A stretch of DNA of 64,000 nt, from NCBI GenBank assembly GCA_031279515.1, contig JAITII010000037.1:1-64000 (forward strand), read 5' to 3'. A program made the position numbers and the translations under genes. This stretch comes from Deltaproteobacteria bacterium (GTDB lineage: Bacteria > Desulfobacterota > Desulfarculia > Adiutricales > Adiutricaceae). This document shows positions 10,505 to 24,576 of the stretch, one piece after another. The notes under the pieces were generated by a model. The model made no database searches, was not told the origin of the DNA, and saw only the letters and a program-made list of their open reading frames with translations. Every line of letters starts with the position of its first letter. Positions within the stretch are counted from its first letter, which is position 1.

Positions 10505-11731
10505 ATGAACGAACCTGTCTTAGAAAATATATCCAACGAGAAACCCACTCTTTGGACAGGTGCCTTTGTCACCTTTCTTTTCATAAACCTATGTATTTTC
10601 ATGGGTTTCAATATGCTTTTACCCACCCTATCACTATATCTAGCAGGAAACGGCTGCTCAGAGCACGAGATAGGGATAATCTTCGGCTCCTTTACCATCT
10701 CAGCCATAGCTGCTAGGCTCTTAGCCAGTCCCATGAGCCAACGCTTTGGGGCCCTGTGGGTGGCCAGAGCCGGACTTTTCATCTGCGCCATAGGAACCCT
10801 TTTCTACTTTCTCTACGAGAACATACCCTCCTATTTAGCTGCTAGGCTCATGCAAGGGGCTGGCTTTGGCCTTACCTCCACCCTACTTGTTTCCTTGGCC
10901 GCCCAATCCATGCCCATTTCTAGGCTAGCTGAGGGCATGGGCTACCTAGGCTTGGGGGCTACAGTATCCCTGGCTCTAGGCCCTTATGCTGGGATCTTCC
11001 TGGCAGAAACCCTGGGCTTTAAGGTAATGTTCATAGCCGTATCCCTCTCTTACCTGGCCGCCACCCTAGTCTCACTCTTACTTCCCAAGATAGTCCTACC
11101 ACTCCAGGAACAAGCCGGTCTAGATGAGGAAAGGCGCTTTCATTTGGAAAAAAGGGCCATACCCCCAGCCATCTTGATGCTCATCTACGGCTGCGGGGTC
11201 TCAGCAATAATAGCCTACCTGGCTATCTATGCCTCCCAGGAGCACCTTCCCAGTGCAGCGGTGTTTTTCATGGTCTCCACAGTGGGTACCATAGCCTCGC
11301 GCCTGTGGGCTGGCAGGATCTATGACCAATATGGCCACAAGTACGTCATACCCCCGGCCCTCCTGTGTTCGGTAATCGCGGTTATTGCTATCATAAGTAA
11401 GCCTTCCGCTCCCATTATGTTCACAGCCGCAGTTTTCTATGGCTTAGGGGCAGGGGCCATGTTTCCCTCCATGCAGACCTTGGCCTTAACTGCAGTGCCT
11501 ATGGAAAAGCGCACCATCTCCTCGGCCTATTTTTTTGTAGCCTTTGACCTAGGTACAGGCGTAGGGGCGGTCTTCATGGGCTTTATGGCCAGGAGCTTCC
11601 ACACCTACAGGGTATGTTTCATCATGGCTGTGATCTTTTTTGTCATACTCTTTGTCACCTACCTCTACTTATTTAAGACGGACAAAGGCTCCCTTCCCCC
11701 TCCTAAAAGCCCTACCCCCTCGGAGGCCTAA
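10505..11731 (+). CDS. Major facilitator superfamily transporter
   Basis: Integral membrane protein of 408 residues with about 12 hydrophobic helices, the normal size for an MFS carrier. The helix 2-3 loop reads LLASPMSQRFGALWVARAG, a weak form of the MFS loop motif, and the matching loop in the second half is AGRIYDQYGHKYV, which supports the internal duplication. The central loop (residues ~203-217) is charged. The ATG has GGAGACTC just before it. The substrate cannot be told from sequence. The next gene begins ~100 bases on, so transcriptional coupling to the Rnf-like pair is possible. Confidence 0.85.
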   Translation: MNEPVLENISNEKPTLWTGAFVTFLFINLCIFMGFNMLLPTLSLYLAGNGCSEHEIGIIFGSFTISAIAARLLASPMSQRFGALWVARAGLFICAIGTLFYFLYENIPSYLAARLMQGAGFGLTSTLLVSLAAQSMPISRLAEGMGYLGLGATVSLALGPYAGIFLAETLGFKVMFIAVSLSYLAATLVSLLLPKIVLPLQEQAGLDEERRFHLEKRAIPPAILMLIYGCGVSAIIAYLAIYASQEHLPSAAVFFMVSTVGTIASRLWAGRIYDQYGHKYVIPPALLCSVIAVIAIISKPSAPIMFTAAVFYGLGAGAMFPSMQTLALTAVPMEKRTISSAYFFVAFDLGTGVGAVFMGFMARSFHTYRVCFIMAVIFFVILFVTYLYLFKTDKGSLPPPKSPTPSEA

Positions 11732-11830
11732 CAAAAGCCTAAATTCGTATTTTTAAACCCCATTTAAGATTTAAGAGGTCTTCCCATCCAAGCCCCTTTA
11801 GTCCTCAAAGCCTTTCCAAACCCCAAAGAT

Positions 11831-12883
11831 TTGGAGCTCCCCATCAAGGGCCTCACCCTCAATAGGGGTATTAAAAAGGGCCAATTGATTGCCCAGGGTC
11901 AGTCCATAGCCAAGGCACCTAACCCTAGGGCACCTGACATGGCCGCCTGTCTACCTGGGCTCATAACCGGCCTCAATAGGGACTGGCTCACCCTGGAAGT
12001 GGAGCTTAACTGCGGGGCAAGTCCAATAGCCCCGATAAGCTTTAGGAACTTGGGGCCTGTGGAGGCCCAGGCATCCTTAAAAAAGATAGGCATAGCCCCA
12101 ATCCTCCCCCCCTCTCCGGGGGATCCCGTTATTATCTCTGGTTTTGACCCTGAACCAGGCTTAAATCTAGCCCCTGTCCTCTGGGAGGACCAAAGGTCCA
12201 CCTTGGAGGCGGGACTCCAATTGGTAACCCGCCTCTTTCCGGGAAAACCTATCCTCTTGGCCCTCCCCCACGGGGTGAGGCCCCTTAGCTCCTGCGATTG
12301 TGCCCCCTTGCACCTGCGCCTCAAATACCCCAAGACCCTGCCAGCATTTTTAAAAAAGAGCCTCATTAAAAGCTACGACCCCTTGGCCAAGGGACTCATC
12401 TCCTCCAGGAAATTACACCTTTTGGGCCAGGCTATGCGCAGCGGCAAGACCCCTGTGGCCTATCCCATGACCATAGGTAGGCTAAGGGCCCAAGTACCCT
12501 CTGGGCTATCACCTAAAAAACTCTTTTCCCTGGTAAACTTAGAAGCCAGGGAAAAATCTAGGGCCCTTCTGGGAGGCCCCATGAGAGGGGTAGTTACAGC
12601 CCAGCTGGAGCGGGGCCTAGCAGGGGAAGTAGAGGCTATCTTTTTAATTAACTCATCGGAGATTGGCATAGGAAGCTGCATCTATTGCGCCAGATGCCGC
12701 TCAAGCTGCCCTTTGGGCCTTCCGGTGGACAAAATAGGTGCCGCCCCCATGCACTTGTGGCAAGATATCTTAAAGGCTAACCCCCTTCTGGCATCCTGCC
12801 CGGCCTGCGGGCTCTGCGCCCTAGCCTGCCCCAGCCATCTACCCCTTTCTTCCCTAAGGTCTGGTTCTGGGTCCAATGAATGA
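11831..12883 (+). CDS. RnfC-like iron-sulfur subunit, divergent
   Basis: The order of elements matches RnfC: an N-terminal barrel-sandwich part (GLTLNRGIKKGQLIAQGQSI), a middle NADH/FMN-type region now much altered, and two 4Fe-4S motifs near the end, CIYCARCRSSCP and CPACGLCALACP. RnfC normally docks NADH chemistry to the membrane Rnf complex. At 350 residues it is shorter than usual RnfC (430 or more), and the usual N-terminal GGVHPP segment is not seen. The first standard start is TTG at 11831. The frame stays open back to the TAA at 11765-11767 and that stretch (QAPLVLKAFPNPKDLELP) looks homologous too, so a non-standard start is possible; AAGAGG lies 7 bases before an ATC at 11786. Its stop overlaps the next ATG by 8 bases. 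Confidence 0.65.
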   Translation: MELPIKGLTLNRGIKKGQLIAQGQSIAKAPNPRAPDMAACLPGLITGLNRDWLTLEVELNCGASPIAPISFRNLGPVEAQASLKKIGIAPILPPSPGDPVIISGFDPEPGLNLAPVLWEDQRSTLEAGLQLVTRLFPGKPILLALPHGVRPLSSCDCAPLHLRLKYPKTLPAFLKKSLIKSYDPLAKGLISSRKLHLLGQAMRSGKTPVAYPMTIGRLRAQVPSGLSPKKLFSLVNLEAREKSRALLGGPMRGVVTAQLERGLAGEVEAIFLINSSEIGIGSCIYCARCRSSCPLGLPVDKIGAAPMHLWQDILKANPLLASCPACGLCALACPSHLPLSSLRSGSGSNE

Positions 12884-14327
12884 ACTATCCCCCCATATAG
12901 AAGTAGAAAAGGGGCAGATGCCCCCCTTGGCACCTGGTCCCTACAAGGCAGGGAGGCCTTTGGTACTCTCTGTCTATTACCTAATAATTGCCGCCCTAAC
13001 CCTTCCATTAATCTTTTACTTTCAAAAAGTGGGCGCTTTAAGCCTCTGGGTCCTGGCCCCATTGCCCCTTTCCGCACTAATTCCTTTTCTATTTTTACCC
13101 AGAAAAATAAAGGCCCCCTTAGCGGAGCTGGGGGCTCTCTGTGGGGCTCTAGTTGCCGACTGCCTTTTGCCAACACTGCCCTCCTATTATCCCAGCCTTA
13201 CAGTATCCCTTTCTTGCGGGGCAGCCACCGCCCTGGGCGGGGCACTGGCCGCCATGTTTCCCAGGTACCTCAAAGCCCTCTATGTGCCTAGTCTAATTTT
13301 GGCCTCTGTGAGCCTGGGCTTTTTTAGCCCCCCGGCCCTTCTCCCCTTGGAGGCAAGTTATGAGCTTCCGCAAGTATTAAAAGAGCTTTACCCCTTTTTC
13401 CTCATGCTCCCACTGTGCCTTGCTGCCTTAATCTTTCATGAGATCCCCCGTCTGCCCTTTGTACTAATCCTGGCTGCCTGGGCGTTCTCCGGGCATTTGG
13501 CAGAGTATTTTGATGGAAGCCTCTATCTCTTGTGGTTAGCCGCCGCCCTCTTCACCCTACCAGAGCTCTGGCGCTCCAGACTTAAATACCTCTACGCCAG
13601 CGTCCTTTTTCTCTCTGGTTTATTGGAGCTCCTGGCCCCCAGCCTAGGTAAAGAGATGGCAAGGGCCCTATTTTTACTCTGCCAGCTTCTCTTATGTGCC
13701 CTAAACACCACTGTCCGCCAGCTAAGCTATAGGGCGGAAAGGCTGCCAAAACCAAATTTAGCCGAGCCCAAGCACGGTGCCCTTATCCCACTTCTATCCT
13801 GCAAGAGGACCCTTAGCTATCCAAAACTCTTAACCAGCGGGGGGCTTGTGCCCTACGAATCTTTGAGCTGCGCCCTTTTAAATAAGCTGGGCGGCGGACC
13901 CTACACCTGCCAGGCCGCCTGCCTAGGAATGGGTGATTGTGTAAATTTATGCCCAGCCGGGGCCATTAGTTTTAATGAGGAAAGGCTACCAGTTGCCCAA
14001 GGGGAAAAGTGCCGGCTCTGCGGGCTCTGCGTACGCTCTTGTCCCAAGGGCCTCTGGAGCCTGGTGCCCAAGGACTTCCAGGTCTTTATCCCCTGCAAGG
14101 GGACAGCCCGCATGAAGGAGATGGATGCCATCTGCCAAGCCGGCTGCCTGGGTTGCGGCCTGTGCCGCAAGGGGTGCCCCTTTGGCGCTATTAGCCGCCC
14201 TACCCTTTCCGCCTTGGCTGTAGTGGACCAGGAGCAATGCGTCGGCAAAAGGGGAAAGTGCCATTGGGAATGCACAGAGGCCTGCCCTCGGGGTATACTC
14301 CAAAAAAATATGGGGGGCGGCCAATAG
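12876..14327 (+). CDS. RnfD-RnfB fusion: membrane domain plus polyferredoxin
   Basis: The protein begins MNELSPHIEV, and SPHI is typical of RnfD. Residues ~28-285 form about ten hydrophobic helices, as in RnfD/NqrB. Residues ~345-475 match the C-terminal part of RnfB: CLGMGDCVNLCPAGAI, CRLCGLCVRSCPKGL, CLGCGLCRKGCPFGAI and CVGKRGKCHWECTEACPRG, enough Cys for three to four 4Fe-4S clusters. I do not see the SGAT-type flavin attachment motif expected in RnfD, nor the RnfB N-terminal helix and its own cluster domain. It overlaps the RnfC-like gene by 8 bases, so the two are translated together. RnfA, RnfE and RnfG are not nearby. The frame is intact over 1.45 kb, which argues for selection. Confidence 0.65.
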   Translation: MNELSPHIEVEKGQMPPLAPGPYKAGRPLVLSVYYLIIAALTLPLIFYFQKVGALSLWVLAPLPLSALIPFLFLPRKIKAPLAELGALCGALVADCLLPTLPSYYPSLTVSLSCGAATALGGALAAMFPRYLKALYVPSLILASVSLGFFSPPALLPLEASYELPQVLKELYPFFLMLPLCLAALIFHEIPRLPFVLILAAWAFSGHLAEYFDGSLYLLWLAAALFTLPELWRSRLKYLYASVLFLSGLLELLAPSLGKEMARALFLLCQLLLCALNTTVRQLSYRAERLPKPNLAEPKHGALIPLLSCKRTLSYPKLLTSGGLVPYESLSCALLNKLGGGPYTCQAACLGMGDCVNLCPAGAISFNEERLPVAQGEKCRLCGLCVRSCPKGLWSLVPKDFQVFIPCKGTARMKEMDAICQAGCLGCGLCRKGCPFGAISRPTLSALAVVDQEQCVGKRGKCHWECTEACPRGILQKNMGGGQ

Positions 14328-14336
14328 AGAGAAATA

Positions 14337-14360
14337 AAAAATTGCAATTATGCAATTTTT
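14337..14360 (+). terminator. AT-only hairpin, possible terminator of the Rnf-like pair
   Basis: AAAAATTGCA, ATTA, TGCAATTTTT starts nine bases after the fusion-gene stop. The stem is 10 bases but only two pairs are G-C, so termination would be weak. It may instead belong to the TTGCAA palindromes that recur downstream. Confidence 0.35.
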
Positions 14361-15325
14361 GTGGTCTTTTGAGGTCTCAAGTTTAAGTTGCTGTAAAATC
14401 TAGTAAAAATAAAATAAGAAAAGAAAAAAATAACAATATTGTTCATTTTTAGTAATTTTTCCTATTTTTTGAGTGAACAATTCTGAGAAAAATATTGCAA
14501 AACTGCAATAAATAACTTTTTTTTCTTTTTCTCATTGCTGGAGACCACAGACAAGAGGGATAAATCATTTTTTGAGCTGGGCTATAAAAATTTTCTCAAA
14601 ATTAATTGTGGAAAAATTTAAACAAAAATAGGAAAAATTAATTTTTTTCGAGTTTATTTCATTTTAAGAAAAAAAATAGATGGGAAAAAATTATAAAATT
14701 GCAATTTTCTAGATTTTTTTTCAATTATTCTGCCTTGAAAATAGGGGGAAATTTAAAAAAAACAAAAGTTCGTTAGTTCAGTTTAGGGGTCCCGAAAGCC
14801 TGCAAATTGGCCATAAAAGCCTTATGTAGCCTAGCTTTTCCCAATTGGGGGGAACCGGAAGAGAAGCTTAGCAGGGCCAAAAATTGGGTCAAACCACAAA
14901 AAAAACTTATAATTGATTTTCTCAAAACAAAGTACTATATTAAAATATGTCTTTACCCTATTGCGCCTCGTAGTCTTTTTAGCCCTTGATTTCCAAGTGC
15001 TCTAAAATTGCCCCGCCTCGTGGGACCAAAAACCTATTTCACTTTAATCCGCTTTATCCCCAAGCTATCTCATCAAACCTTAAGGCCTCTGTCTTAAATC
15101 ACCAAGAGAGGCAAAAAAGCCGCTCTCGAAAACCTAGCTGGCTACAATAACTAAATTTTTTTCTAGCTCATCTTACAAAATCACTAAAATCTTTAAAACA
15201 CCTATTTTTTTCTAGTTTTTGTTGTTTTCTCCCCTAGCACTCCATACTAGGGTTTTAACTACCAAACTAAAAAACCTCCAAAAAAGATGTAGATATATGG
15301 GTCAAGCCCAAAGGGATTATTGACC
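14361..15325. other. Very AT-rich spacer with repeated TTGCAA palindromes
   Basis: Nearly 1 kb without a convincing gene. The first ~400 bases are mostly A and T, with ATTGCAAAACTGCAAT near 14493 and AAAATTGCAATTTT near 14697, plus a TTGTTCA/TGAACAA pair near 14438 and 14475. The second half is closer to normal composition but carries stops in all frames. It marks the left edge of the AT-rich island. Confidence 0.55.
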
Positions 15326-18360: not shown

Positions 18361-21300
18361 TTATTGTTCTGAGATTGCCTTGGCAACAAAAGGATCAATG
18401 ACGTAAGCTTTTGGTTGGGCAAATGGATCTATAGGTGTAATTAGTTGAAGATCTGATAAAGTTTTAACCGCTGATGCAACGTAAATATTTCTACCCTCAC
18501 TAATATTTAGATTGATTTTCCATCTGGAAAGCTGAATTCTGTATTGGTGGGTGTTTAAGTCATTCTTATCAGGAAACGGGAGAGGAAAATCCTTACCATA
18601 GCGGTGATAAAACAGTTGCTGGAGTTTTAGGGAGGTAACAGGTCCGTGTAGGGCTACAAGTTTTAAGACTGGAAGGCATATTTTTGTATCAAATTGGAAG
18701 TCCGTGGGGATAATGGAAGTAGTATCATTGGTTTCATCAGTAGTAGAAGCATGAATATCTGAAGAGGCTAAGTCTATATCATGTTGCTCGGCGTAAAGTT
18801 TCATTAGTTTATTTACTACCGATAAATACCATCCACCAGTGCTTTCCATGATTTCTTTGGCATCGACACCCTTTAGCTCATAGTCATCGATTAACAATTT
18901 AAGGGAACTCTCATTGAATTTTTTGACTTGGATTTGCATGATTTGCAGTGATGCTTGGATGATTTTTGGGATTATGCTAAACTCTGGTGTAATCAAAATT
19001 GATAAAATATTTTTGAAGTGGCCAGCTTGATTATTGTGTCCATTTACGTAACCGCATAGATTAAACAGTAAAGGGCATAAATGCTCATATTCTAGTTCTA
19101 ATGGATGAACAATTATATGAAAAATTTGTTCGTTTGAGGAAGTTCTGGATAATTCAAAAATTTGAAAAGCTGAGTCAATAGAAGTGAGCTGCATGGTTAT
19201 AATTTTATTATTAAAAGTGGATTGGACAAGATTAAACAAAGCATCTTTAAGAAGTGTTAACTCTTCCTCCTGGGCACAGGAGATAATACGAACACCGTTA
19301 CCATAGGTATTGTGTATAAGGCCGTATTCTTGTAACATAGTAAGAGGGCTGGGGATGGGAATATTATTATTTTTAGACGGTAAGACATACAGTCGTCGCT
19401 TGTTATTTTTTCCATCAGGTGGAATGATGGGGAGCTTTTTTAAGTCATCTACTGCCTGAAATAATTCATCATTGTTATTCCATAAGATATTAGCTGCAGC
19501 GGGCGAATTCTTAAAATAAAACCCCGAATCATTTACTAGCCCGAAGGATTCCATATCCTTTAGGTAATATTCTAGCTCATAGTCCATAAAGTCAGAAAAG
19601 TTATCAGGACATTCTGCGATAATAGAATGATAGAGATAAGTTAATCCATCTTGTCTAAGTTGCAAATGGGGTGTAGCAAAGGGATTTGCCAAAGCAGTTT
19701 CAAGGCTCATTAAAGTGTAAATGAGCCTATAGAAACTATCTTGACCTAAGATAACTTGGTAAGAATTTTTAAAAGCTCCTGTGATTTTGGATTTAGCCAT
19801 TACCCTAGTTAATATTTCTTCTGTTATTATGAATGGTGGAATGCTGTCGGGGGCCAAATTTTTATTCATTTCTTTTATGAGCTCCCGGCAAATCAGTTGT
19901 ACCAGATGCGGTTGGTTGCTTGAGTTGGATAATAACTTGTAGATTAGCTTTTCGTCTTTGAATTCAAAACCTAAGGATTTCAAGGGATCAATTACAAGGA
20001 GCATAGCTTCGAGGGGCTGAAAGGGTCCCATTATGATGGGAGGTCCCAAGTCAAATAGGTGACTTTCTGGATGTCGGTTTAGTCTCCCGGCCAAAGTATA
20101 TCCTGTAAAGATAATCTCAAAAAATGGGCTCAAGGTCATTGTTTTTAGCAAAAATTCTTTATTTTCTGGATTAGCCATTAATTCGCGAAAAATTTCATCA
20201 CTATTGTCAGCTAATATGGTTATACGTTTTATTATTTTGTCATTATTACTAAGTCTTTGGAGCTGTTCAAGCTTATCCAAAATTTTTTGGGCAGAATCAT
20301 CACTGTCAGCTAATTTCAGGGTAACCATACCGGCGCGGACGAGGCCAACTATATCTCTGTAATCTTGGGCATTTAGTAGGGTGACATACTCTCCATTGGG
20401 CAGATTGCTACTCATTGACTGGAATAGGTATTTTAGGATCGCAGTCTTTCCTTGAAAGGGTCCTCCAAGCAACAGTTTGTGGCCCTTTTGTGTGGATAGC
20501 TTCTTTAACACCTCCATGCGTCCATAAAATAGCGGACGGTTATTGAGGGCACTAAAGATGTATGGATTGAAATTTCCAAGGTGGAAGCCGCTCTTAAAGA
20601 GTACCTGGTGTATTTTTTTCTTGAAAAGCTTGGAGCTTAAAAAGGCAACAAGGTTGGTGTCCACCACCAGGATGTTTTTTTGAGAATTTCTAGCCCATTG
20701 CCATAGAAATTTTCTGTCGGAAGTGGAAAGTTTGGTGAAAGACAAAATGACTGTTGGCTTGTCTTCTATTAAGTATCTGTCTAGAATATTTGTTAGGTCC
20801 TTAGAAGAGAATTTTTCGTCCCAGCACATGATGAGAGTAAGGCGTTCATATGTATCTTTCCAGATGTTTAGGCATGGAGAGGTAGAAGCGTTTATGTCGT
20901 ATATGTGGTAGTGCGGTGAATTTATGTTTTTGTAAATCGGGATGAATTTTGCACTTCGCTCTACAGTAAAACCTAGCCAGGAAAGAAATCTTCTAAGTAA
21001 GCTTGCTCCTTTTTCGTCTGTTTCCTCCAGGCTTTTCATTTGGCTAAGTTGTTCCCAGAGTTTCTTACCATCCTTGTCGATGGAAGAATTTTGCTCTAAA
21101 AGCTTTTGGCCATAATACTGGAAAGGGTCACCGCTTTTATCAAATTCATTTAAAAAGGCGTAAAATTCGGAAGCGTAGTTTAATTCAAAAATGCTTGCCT
21201 CCGTATTCAGTATTCTTGACTTTTGTCTTAAAAAGTCTTTTAATTCTTCAAAACAAGCTCGAATGTCCGAAAAATTATCCTCCACGGTGATCCTGGCGAC

Positions 21301-24300
21301 TTTATCACGCATTTCAGGTGAGATTAATTTTATGGAATCATTGTAAAGTTTAACAATATTGACTAAAATATTGATCTTGAAAGAATAAACTTCCGAATCA
21401 ATATGAGGAATTATACTTGTAGCCATGATGCTTAGATTGGAGAGAATAGAATAATCTTTGTTAGATCGACAAGCTTCAAGTATAGAGAGATGAATTTTGT
21501 TGAAGCTACAGAAAACCGAGTTTGTGTATTCGCTTAAAAAACCAGAATAATAATATAAATCTAGAAGATCTTTGTTAGCATTCAGTGTCGACTCCATCTC
21601 ATCAAGTAAGAGGTCAACAGAACTATCTAAAAACTCTTGGAGGGTATTACTGTGGCCTTTGGGTATATAGTTCCTAGCCGGTCTGTAGGCTTCCAGAAAA
21701 AAAGAAGGAAAGATTATTCTGTTGTCTCTTTTCAAATGAGCTAAAAAGCCCTCAGCAGCATCTTGTAAAGTGTAAGTAGGAATTAAAAAGGAGTTAAGAA
21801 GACTTGGCAAAGGAGGGATGTAAACTCCCAAAATGTTGCTGTGGCTATAGTCTTTTATTACCACTGAATAAGAATGCACATCTACTAGGTAGTTAGTGGC
21901 ATAAAAATCATTTTGCCACCTGTATTCCGACAGATTATCATTGGTGGGAGCCATTTGGTTTTTTCCCACTGTTACAAAATCTAGGAAATCCTGGGATGCT
22001 ATGGAAGATAATACTTTGCGGAACAGCTTCTCTGCGAAGTTCATATGCTCGGGAAAATTTTGCAAAAGCAAGTTGGACTTTTCGATTATATCTTTCAACC
22101 TGTTTGTCCAGAACTCTTTTGTGCTACAAAGGTAGTCCCCTTTGAGAGCTCTGTGATAATCCACCCATTGGGAAGCCAAGGCTAACATTGAGTTGATGTT
22201 TTCTTGTACGATAACTCCGTTGTTATTCCTAAAGGCTTGTTGGGTAAACTTGTCTACATTTTCTTCTATGAATTTTTTGAATGACTCGTCGTCTATGTAT
22301 TTTATCGAGGAAGTTTCCACATCACTAAGGTCTCCTTTGATGGCTGCCTCCAAAATGTCATGTAGTTTCCCTTTTTGCAAGACGGTTTTCCACAAGTGTG
22401 TTGCCAGCGTGTAGTCACAGTAGTGCTTGTCCAGGTATAACTTAAAGTCATCGGTTTTCTCAATTAATTGTGCATGTGCTGTCTTTAAGTTTTGTGCATT
22501 ACAAAATATCCTAAAATCCCTAGAGTAATCTTCACTTGTGTCTATATCACAGAGTTGAACTAGACTATCTAACAAATCAGTTGAATAGCGTTTAGGTAGA
22601 AATTTAGAAAAAAATGTGTAGAAACCTTTATAGAGAGGATTTGGAGCCATGATATTTGGATACAGAAGAGCTGTATACATTAAGATGGCCTCTTCCGGTT
22701 CCAGAGTTGTTTTCCTTAGTCCCTTGTAGCGGTCTATTTCCTCGTTGATGTCTATAAAGGCCTGCTGTAGTGTAAAAGGTGCCGCTTTAAAGTTTAAACC
22801 CAAATGCAGAAGTTTCATTAACCAACTAGCGAAGTAATTATCAACCGTTGCAACTGCAAGAAGATATGCGCTTCTAGTTTGGGATTTGTCCAGGAGTTTT
22901 ATAGTAACACCTCTGACGAGATCGCCCACAACATTATAAGGTAAGTCTTGTCCAGGAAGAGTTCCTTTTAGGGGAATTAAAAATTCTTCAAACTGTTGCA
23001 AATTTCTGTCTGCAAACTCTTGGTCACCTTTTAGCAATCTCAGGTTACTTGTAGATGCGACGAGATTATCATCACTCATATCTGAACGCAACAGAGATAA
23101 AAATTCTTCATTATTATAGTTATTGTCTGTTAAATCTTCATTGGCTAATCTAGTTAGCGTATCTCCCATTTGGTTGACATACATTTTTTGTTTGGGGAAG
23201 TCTGAAGGCCTAGAAAGAAGCTCAATTATATCTGAGCTGGTGATAGCAGCATTTGGAGAGCTGCCGCTTCCATCAAATAATGGTAGAACGTCCTTAGATT
23301 CTACCGGTGTAATAGTGTCATCTCCGTCTACTATGTCTATTTCACTTGTTCTGGTGGCAACTATATCGCTTTCATGATTCAAATCCATTAGTTCTTCACT
23401 TAGAGGTGGTAATTCATCTGTCAATGAGTCTAAAATTGATTCATATGCACCTTCATTGAGTTTAGTTATAAAAGTACTGGAGAATTTATCTTTTAAGTTT
23501 ATTAGTTGCGATTCCTTTAAAGGTTTGGTCATTAACAGGAGCTTTATGAGTTCTTTGCCTAATGGACACTCGGGTTCCCAATTTTTGTCTAATGGAAGTC
23601 TGTTAATTTTATTTATCATTTGGGTCAAAGTATTGTAATCTGTCTTGCCAGGACGCACCAATTTTCGTATCTGAAGAAATATATATGCGGCTGAATTAGA
23701 AACCTGAAATGTTTCCTTTAATCTTTCTAATGGTTCGAATACTTGTTGGAACTGTTCATTCACCATTTCCCAATACGATACTATGTTGTCGGATTTTTTT
23801 GATATATCCTCAGGGGAGACTTTAAATAAGAAATCTAAATTTACGTTGGGCGTACTTTCAAATTTATCAATATTTTGCCAAAATTTGGCAAGTAAATCTT
23901 CGATCAAAGCCATCATTTCTTTTCCGTAAGAGTAGGCTTGTGCGACGATTTTCTTATTGTATTTCCAATGCTTTCCAGACATGATAGAGCATAACTTATT
24001 ATTAATTACTTCAATTTCTTCGTTTAGCTTATTAAAATCTGCTCTTATTATGTGTTCTATCGTTTGTTTGATTTTTAAAATGTCAATATATTTATCCCTA
24101 GCATTTTGAGTTTCTGGAGGTACATATGGTACATTTGATTTGATTTTTGGCAAAAACTTCAATGATTGTAGCAGTTGCAATAGAACAAAGTCAGTTTCTA
24201 GAATTTGCTCATTTTTTTCATCCAGCATATCAAGGAAGATAAACAAAAGCTGTTGCCAATTGGAGAATCTTAGTTTCCTGGCTTTTTCAAAGGGAGGTTT

Positions 24301-24576
24301 AAATATTGCGGTATGCCATAAAAAGATGAGTTCTTGTAACAACTTTTCATTCATGGCGATTTTTTGCATTTCTTCTAAGCGGCTTTTGCTGGTCAAGGCT
24401 ATTTTAGGGTATTTTTTAGCAAAAAAGCTATAATCAAATTTGCAAGCCCTAAAGAAGCGTTCACATTCTTCCGGATACAAGCTAAGATCGCTCAAAAGGG
24501 TCTGGATGCAGTCTTTTTTCATCATTGCTCTAACTAACTCAGTGGGTAAGAGCTGCTTTTTTTCTGTTTTTTTCAT
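18361..24576 (-). CDS. Giant STAND-like P-loop NTPase (2071 residues), function unknown
   Basis: The N-terminal ~1100 residues are charged and mostly helical with no domain I recognise. Residues ~1240-1330 are an alpha/beta segment (TVILSFTKLSTSDRKFLWQW, NILVVDTNLVAFL) leading into RPLFYGRMEVLKKL. A P-loop follows, LLLGGPFQGKTAILKYL, near residue 1370, then a Walker B-like ITILADNSDEIF near 1450. This order (xGR-E-L, GG-x-GKT, helical lid) matches STAND/AAA-type regulators. The last ~110 residues look like a winged helix (KLVALHGPVTSLKLQQLF). There is no signal peptide or membrane segment. Composition is rich in Asn, Lys and Ile, unlike neighbours, which suggests transfer. Large single-gene STAND proteins are common phage sensors, so a defence role is a fair inference but no effector domain is identified. 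Confidence 0.75.
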   Translation of the reverse strand: MKKTEKKQLLPTELVRAMMKKDCIQTLLSDLSLYPEECERFFRACKFDYSFFAKKYPKIALTSKSRLEEMQKIAMNEKLLQELIFLWHTAIFKPPFEKARKLRFSNWQQLLFIFLDMLDEKNEQILETDFVLLQLLQSLKFLPKIKSNVPYVPPETQNARDKYIDILKIKQTIEHIIRADFNKLNEEIEVINNKLCSIMSGKHWKYNKKIVAQAYSYGKEMMALIEDLLAKFWQNIDKFESTPNVNLDFLFKVSPEDISKKSDNIVSYWEMVNEQFQQVFEPLERLKETFQVSNSAAYIFLQIRKLVRPGKTDYNTLTQMINKINRLPLDKNWEPECPLGKELIKLLLMTKPLKESQLINLKDKFSSTFITKLNEGAYESILDSLTDELPPLSEELMDLNHESDIVATRTSEIDIVDGDDTITPVESKDVLPLFDGSGSSPNAAITSSDIIELLSRPSDFPKQKMYVNQMGDTLTRLANEDLTDNNYNNEEFLSLLRSDMSDDNLVASTSNLRLLKGDQEFADRNLQQFEEFLIPLKGTLPGQDLPYNVVGDLVRGVTIKLLDKSQTRSAYLLAVATVDNYFASWLMKLLHLGLNFKAAPFTLQQAFIDINEEIDRYKGLRKTTLEPEEAILMYTALLYPNIMAPNPLYKGFYTFFSKFLPKRYSTDLLDSLVQLCDIDTSEDYSRDFRIFCNAQNLKTAHAQLIEKTDDFKLYLDKHYCDYTLATHLWKTVLQKGKLHDILEAAIKGDLSDVETSSIKYIDDESFKKFIEENVDKFTQQAFRNNNGVIVQENINSMLALASQWVDYHRALKGDYLCSTKEFWTNRLKDIIEKSNLLLQNFPEHMNFAEKLFRKVLSSIASQDFLDFVTVGKNQMAPTNDNLSEYRWQNDFYATNYLVDVHSYSVVIKDYSHSNILGVYIPPLPSLLNSFLIPTYTLQDAAEGFLAHLKRDNRIIFPSFFLEAYRPARNYIPKGHSNTLQEFLDSSVDLLLDEMESTLNANKDLLDLYYYSGFLSEYTNSVFCSFNKIHLSILEACRSNKDYSILSNLSIMATSIIPHIDSEVYSFKINILVNIVKLYNDSIKLISPEMRDKVARITVEDNFSDIRACFEELKDFLRQKSRILNTEASIFELNYASEFYAFLNEFDKSGDPFQYYGQKLLEQNSSIDKDGKKLWEQLSQMKSLEETDEKGASLLRRFLSWLGFTVERSAKFIPIYKNINSPHYHIYDINASTSPCLNIWKDTYERLTLIMCWDEKFSSKDLTNILDRYLIEDKPTVILSFTKLSTSDRKFLWQWARNSQKNILVVDTNLVAFLSSKLFKKKIHQVLFKSGFHLGNFNPYIFSALNNRPLFYGRMEVLKKLSTQKGHKLLLGGPFQGKTAILKYLFQSMSSNLPNGEYVTLLNAQDYRDIVGLVRAGMVTLKLADSDDSAQKILDKLEQLQRLSNNDKIIKRITILADNSDEIFRELMANPENKEFLLKTMTLSPFFEIIFTGYTLAGRLNRHPESHLFDLGPPIIMGPFQPLEAMLLVIDPLKSLGFEFKDEKLIYKLLSNSSNQPHLVQLICRELIKEMNKNLAPDSIPPFIITEEILTRVMAKSKITGAFKNSYQVILGQDSFYRLIYTLMSLETALANPFATPHLQLRQDGLTYLYHSIIAECPDNFSDFMDYELEYYLKDMESFGLVNDSGFYFKNSPAAANILWNNNDELFQAVDDLKKLPIIPPDGKNNKRRLYVLPSKNNNIPIPSPLTMLQEYGLIHNTYGNGVRIISCAQEEELTLLKDALFNLVQSTFNNKIITMQLTSIDSAFQIFELSRTSSNEQIFHIIVHPLELEYEHLCPLLFNLCGYVNGHNNQAGHFKNILSILITPEFSIIPKIIQASLQIMQIQVKKFNESSLKLLIDDYELKGVDAKEIMESTGGWYLSVVNKLMKLYAEQHDIDLASSDIHASTTDETNDTTSIIPTDFQFDTKICLPVLKLVALHGPVTSLKLQQLFYHRYGKDFPLPFPDKNDLNTHQYRIQLSRWKINLNISEGRNIYVASAVKTLSDLQLITPIDPFAQPKAYVIDPFVAKAISEQ

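Follow-up and report, generated by a model that had tools for sequence, protein, structure and literature searches.

The Rnf complex is usually regarded as an all-or-nothing ion pump, and ApbE is needed for the attachment of FMN to its subunits RnfD and RnfG. PduS is a relative of RnfC that is used outside the pump. In intact Rnf, electrons pass from RnfB through RnfA/E, RnfG, RnfD and RnfC to NAD+, and the clusters of RnfB and RnfC lie more than 30 Å apart (PMC11889175, PMC12174285). NqrA of Na+-NQR is an RnfC relative without redox cofactors (PMC12174285), while RnfC2 of the MetVF-type MTHFR confers NADH use (PMC9430772). In Desulfovibrio alaskensis, the Rnf encoded by Dde_0581-0587, in the order multihaem cytochrome, RnfCDGEAB and ApbE, has been described as a ferredoxin:NADH oxidoreductase (PMC4215793).

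We analyzed a stretch of 64,000 nucleotides (the window; contig JAITII010000037.1, positions 1 to 64,000) from a termite gut bacterium of the Adiutricaceae (Desulfobacterota), relatives of Candidatus Adiutrix. It encodes an RnfC-like protein and, behind it, a fusion of about ten hydrophobic helices, as seen in a low-confidence structure model, to an RnfB-type polyferredoxin (Table 1). On balance we favor the reading that this pair is a membrane-anchored [4Fe-4S] relay, free of NAD and flavins, which descends from a Desulfovibrio-type Rnf and works without ion pumping. With the canonical Rnf of Acetobacterium woodii and Clostridium tetanomorphum (9eri, 7zc6) the module has in common the RnfB polyferredoxin and the RnfC fold with its two [4Fe-4S] clusters; in contrast to it, the FMN/NADH loop of RnfC, the A, E and G subunits, the flavin motifs, and the transmembrane helix and PF04060 domain of RnfB are all missing, and D and B are fused. 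Unlike NqrA, the window protein has retained its two [4Fe-4S] motifs, and NqrB/D/E are absent from the genome as judged by PF03116/PF02508. RnfC2 and PrdC, the latter a weak NCBIfam match of the Desulfovibrio RnfC only, are likewise RnfC-like proteins outside an Rnf pump, whereas the window protein differs from RnfC2 in lacking the NADH loop and in being paired with a membrane-bound polyferredoxin.

Table 1. Coordinates of the reduced Rnf module, its parts and divergent copies (window positions unless a locus is given).
Feature	Position	Strand	Remarks
MFS transporter gene	10505..11731	+	408 aa; leads the gene string MFS - rnfC-like - rnfDB; PF07690 E 2e-50
Putative start region of RnfC-like gene	11773..11788	+	SD-like AAGAGGT at 11773-11779; ATC at 11786-11788; inferred
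RnfC-like gene	11786..12883	+	Barrel-sandwich N-domain, 51K-like domain without GGAGFP, SLBB-like domain, 2x[4Fe-4S] C-terminus
Two CxxCxxCxxxCP motifs of RnfC-like protein	12677..12832	+	8/8 Cys invariant, 24 relatives
RnfDB-type fusion gene	12876..14327	+	ATG start; 483 aa; architecture shared by most Adiutricaceae genomes
xxGP[FY] motif, fusion residues 19-23	12930..12944	+	Sits where RnfD has SxSPH
Membrane domain, fusion residues 33-289	12972..13742	+	~10 helices; RnfD origin probable; without flavin-site motifs
RnfB-type polyferredoxin	13800..14288	+	Four [4Fe-4S] motifs: Cys 345-470 plus Cys 309, 332, 407
Fusion of G026 without membrane domain	L087:8389-9084	-	Also L181; rnfC-like gene and overlap with rnfC kept
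Fusions of genus g8, 661-1655 aa	L070:1305-3974, L071:354-2336, L073:2301-7265, L074:6220-9477		Long hydrophilic repeat-rich inserts before and inside membrane domain

The two open reading frames, 11831-12883 (first TTG) and 12876-14327 (ATG), both on the plus strand, overlap by 8 bp, and their matches to RnfC and RnfB profiles bear out the preliminary description of a gene for an RnfC-like 2x[4Fe-4S] protein overlapping one that joins helices to RnfB. The end given there for the pair, 14327, also stands, whereas its start, 11831, probably has to be moved upstream. The open frame of the RnfC-like gene extends back to 11768 and has no ATG, GTG or TTG before 11831; since the VLKA[WF]P segment conserved in the relatives precedes TTG 11831 in the window, the gene probably starts at the ATC at 11786, behind the AAGAGGT. 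About 1 kb of AT-rich DNA (14330-15319, down to 31% GC), in which we found neither a gene call nor an Rfam match, separates the fusion from the next gene, an ATPase-like open reading frame. Further on, a single frame of 2071 aa occupies 18361-24576 on the minus strand.

The RnfC-like protein matches RnfC model TIGR01945 over its C-terminal part (E 1e-14) and aligns with ordinary RnfC by hhalign over its full length (E 7e-31, 359 columns), with a 13-residue gap at the GGAGFP FMN/NADH loop. It is the RnfC stretch GLGGAGFPTHVKL that is deleted in this otherwise full-length homologue, and the gap coincides with VGLGGAGFPTHVKL, the glycine-rich FMN/NADH loop of RnfC. The RnfC_N model matches 7 of the 24 RnfC-like members and the 51K domain model just one, at E 0.14. 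In a Foldseek search with an AF2 model of the protein (pLDDT 80), the best five matches (E 1e-18 to 5e-17) were the RnfC subunits of solved Rnf complexes, with NqrA ranking after them as the second-best fold. The window gene thus codes for an RnfC homologue with two [4Fe-4S] clusters, from which, by these alignments, the FMN/NADH-binding loop is lost.

The second gene, too, ends in a recognizable Rnf part. The C-terminal 150 residues of the fusion match RnfB (NCBIfam PRK07118.1-2, E 8e-33) at RnfB positions 122-265, and the C-terminal part also matches PDB 9eri_B at E 2e-20; the C-terminal third corresponds to the polyferredoxin half of RnfB. The N-terminal transmembrane helix of RnfB and its PF04060 Fe-S domain are missing: the RnfB profile is matched only from position ~122, PF04060 is reported for 0 of the 22 fusion members, and the membrane domain stands in its place. 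Outside the Adiutricaceae, where the best match was the RnfB of Desulfovibrio piger, ordinary RnfB proteins with transmembrane helix and PF04060 made up the majority of the hits examined, and short soluble forms the remainder. Genome G006 encodes a soluble RnfB-like polyferredoxin of 181 aa between ammonia-lyase-like and xanthine-dehydrogenase-like genes (L094:5961-6506, plus strand), and short forms resembling it are likewise encoded at loci of Coriobacteria and Lachnospiraceae (L150, L157, L158, L163, L164).

As to the membrane domain, the preliminary description had spoken of ten RnfD-like helices. Their number, about ten, holds, but the likeness to RnfD is faint, and the sign on which it had relied, SPHI at residues 5-8, is found in none of the 21 aligned relatives and, judging from this alignment, almost certainly arose by chance. 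SPHI was therefore rejected as proof of RnfD; the conserved motif, xxGP[FY], lies further in (G21-P22-Y23), P22 being invariant and G21 nearly so among the 22 fusion relatives. The N-terminal two thirds of the fusion have no Pfam match, and none of the 22 members is matched by PF03116 (RnfD), even with the E-value limit raised to 10. When compared with RnfD by hhalign, the membrane domain is co-linear over the first ~125 columns (E 2.4e-4 with 14 members, 0.01 with all 22; the best of these E-values has to be discounted because several subsets were tried). The best hhalign probability was 43%, and the real scores exceeded all of the 95-115 nulls, made of reversed and block-shuffled alignments, in three of four subsets and not in the remaining one. 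Circular permutation was dropped as a null, the matching block staying intact under permutation. The second half of the domain fails to align with RnfD, a comparison with Desulfovibrio-type RnfD alone gave no improvement (too few sequences), and a structure model of the fusion built from 8 sequences reached pLDDT 46, its membrane part being uninformative. The PF03116 result, the unaligned second half and the poor model would all suit an unrelated helix bundle that was fused to the polyferredoxin as an anchor. We nevertheless regard such an origin as doubtful, since it leaves unexplained a co-linear similarity above all nulls in three of four subsets, a domain placed between the RnfC and RnfB parts where RnfD is expected, the correspondence of the N-terminal xxGP[FY] and SxSPH motifs, and a helix number of about ten. 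Descent from RnfD is probable, not proven. Whatever its origin, none of the 22 aligned membrane domains has the RnfD flavin-site motifs, in agreement with the absence of the SGAT-type motif first noted in the window protein, and an RnfD with covalent FMN and a riboflavin site is accordingly missing from this module.

The absences extend well beyond the locus. In the window genome, as in all 37 genomes of the family set (11 genera), there are no matches to PF02508 (RnfA/E, with its [2Fe-2S] site), PF03116 (RnfD) or PF04205 (RnfG). The same Pfam models recognize the Desulfovibrio-type subunits at E 1e-15 to 1e-86 (RnfE, E 3e-64) and regularly find full sets when applied to other families of the class. 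The window genome lacks ApbE, as do 27 of the 37 family genomes; the other 10 have it. The lack of RnfA, E and G noted near the pair therefore holds for the whole genome, and a search of that genome for a full Rnf operon elsewhere found none. Of the two readings put forward in the preliminary description, these absences support the first, a simplified electron-transfer complex that does not pump ions, and not the second, a partner of remote subunits; because RnfA/E, RnfG and detectable RnfD are absent family-wide, the pair is neither such a partner nor a decaying copy. A complex-I/group-4-type 49 kDa subunit is present in nearly all family genomes, so that another ion pump would be available to these bacteria.

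The reduced pair is a family-wide trait. The RnfC-like gene was found in 33 of the 37 genomes (E < 1e-49), with the fusion directly behind it wherever both could be read, so a search for the same fusion elsewhere, as had been proposed, was answered by most Adiutricaceae genomes. One of the four gaps, in G001 from the same genus as the window genome, is an assembly break: beyond the upstream MFS gene the contig runs on for just ~100 bp. Within the sets searched, the pair is restricted to the Adiutricaceae. A plasmid search with the RnfC-like protein gave no match, and a literature search found no paper on Rnf in Adiutrix; a first contig scan using a single sequence as query had recovered nothing. 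The eight cluster cysteines of the RnfC-like protein are invariant in 24 relatives that are ~31-49% identical to it, and each of those in the fusion is kept in all or at least 90% of 22 relatives of ~24-35% identity. Retention of these cysteines at such low identity indicates that the iron-sulfur wiring is under strong purifying selection. The [4Fe-4S] ligands are thus conserved across genera, whereas the membrane domain is barely alignable among relatives. In G026 (genus g6, a 3-contig assembly) it has been lost in frame, which leaves the N-terminal DGPF segment joined by a short linker to the polyferredoxin, and in a tree of the RnfB domain this copy is nested among helix-bearing g6 relatives. 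In the same tree the fusions form one clade with 100/99 support. The many missing subunits and the long branch of the window copy might recall an Rnf operon in decay, of which only a non-functional remnant is left; with cluster ligands kept across genera, intact frames, a tight gene overlap and a single clade present in 33 of 37 genomes, such a remnant is scarcely credible. Giant multi-domain fusions (up to 1848 aa) suggested by long open frames were rejected as mostly GC-rich stop-free DNA. The genuinely longer fusions, from genus g8, owe their length to hydrophilic inserts and contain no further Rnf subunits.

A tree of RnfC points to where the module came from. In a sample of 395 genomes of the phylum, the next full-length relatives of the RnfC-like protein came from Desulfovibrio-like genomes (E ~1e-62) and G439 (E 2.5e-47), and the loci read there are complete Rnf operons behind a multihaem cytochrome. 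Such cytochrome-linked operons, with an RnfC devoid of GGAGFP, were seen in D. piger, Desulfovibrio-like genomes and G439 (L103, L182-L186). The Desulfovibrio-type RnfC thus also has no GGAGFP loop. It is the closest RnfC in the tree, where it groups with the Adiutricaceae proteins at 100/99, apart from 34 loop-bearing RnfCs; a 100/100 branch sets all loop-less proteins apart, in a tree rooted at the midpoint and with loop-bearing references chosen by their GGAGFP motif. On this topology, the Adiutricaceae RnfC-like protein is sister to the RnfC of Desulfovibrio-type Rnf. Since the latter is loop-less as well, loss of the NADH loop probably predates the reduction in the Adiutricaceae, and NAD+ may not be the true electron acceptor of Desulfovibrio-type Rnf. 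That system has six subunits, with recognizable RnfD, RnfG and RnfA/E, as well as ApbE and the cytochrome, none of which accompanies the window module.

How could the remaining parts work together? We propose that the fused, probably RnfD-derived helix bundle holds the polyferredoxin, with its four [4Fe-4S] clusters, at the cytoplasmic face of the membrane, and that the RnfC-like protein, with two more, docks on the fusion, probably via the N-terminal GP[FY] that replaces the SPH segment of RnfD. In intact Rnf the N-terminus of RnfD sits in the cavity of RnfC (PMC11889175), so that the invariant GP[FY] at the RnfD SPH position could be the docking segment; it is kept even in G026, which has no helices. 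Reduced ferredoxin or a similar low-potential donor would feed electrons into the RnfB part, from which they would move directly on to the RnfC part and finally reach an acceptor protein, the six remaining [4Fe-4S] clusters all lying on the cytoplasmic side of the membrane anchor. With A/E/G and the flavins lost, only direct or external transfer is left, and direct transfer from RnfB to RnfC would need an arrangement closer than that in the known structures. Since the [2Fe-2S] of RnfA/E, the flavins of RnfG and RnfD and the NADH/FMN site are all gone, we expect the module neither to pump ions nor to reduce NAD+. This argument about pumping proceeds from absent parts, and the missing pump parts could come from an unrelated partner. 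The membrane domain is, moreover, kept in nearly all members although anchoring takes far less, which suggests a role beyond passive anchoring and might speak for a complex that still pumps ions, either with unrelated proteins in place of A/E/G or with the membrane domain itself transporting. We consider this very unlikely: the module has lost the flavin motifs, FMN attachment and the RnfA/E iron site, its membrane domain shows hardly any conservation and is missing from G026, and the complex-I/group-4-type enzyme could be the pump instead.

If the module is indeed such a non-pumping relay, parts of Rnf can persist after the loss of pumping and NADH chemistry, in a family-wide version reduced to [4Fe-4S] wiring. 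It would amount to a natural subtraction experiment on the roles of Rnf parts, which includes a relative without any membrane domain. Annotation by the mere presence of RnfB and RnfC can also falsely assign Rnf-based energy conservation to putative acetogens such as the Adiutricaceae.

An energy-conserving machine seems to be reused as a plain electron relay, whose genes usually follow a transporter gene immediately. Outside genus g6, all 18 loci with enough upstream DNA have an MFS gene on the same strand as the immediate upstream neighbor, and in 16 of the 18 its stop codon is 10-70 bp before the RnfC VLK motif. The conserved neighborhood points to a possible functional link with the relay. 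One could envisage a transporter-coupled redox module, in which the relay works with the MFS protein, for instance by reducing a redox-active compound that this protein exports or imports, or by protecting the cell against such compounds in a way comparable to the action of Rsx on SoxR. The constancy of the MFS gene would fit, as would the resemblance of its product to a drug exporter, NorA, its nearest solved structure, and the loss of the membrane domain in one genome of g6, the very genus whose loci have no linked MFS gene. Yet g6 keeps rnfC-rnfDB, and so the MFS protein is not strictly needed by the relay; a second MFS copy is found elsewhere in most genomes, and neighboring genes often stay together for other reasons. 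We therefore judge this coupling unlikely. Rather improbable, too, is the wider idea that a respiratory ion pump was turned into a non-pumping relay that either serves a secondary transporter or is powered by one (MFS - RnfC-like - RnfDB); were it true, this would be the first Rnf-derived complex partnered with an MFS carrier instead of NAD+ or a cytochrome. In genus g8 (G008, G015, G020:C466, G028:C395, G032:C314), several MFS matches occur per contig, some of them just upstream of the rnfC-like gene, and at least G020 and G028 carry tandem MFS copies (two or more).
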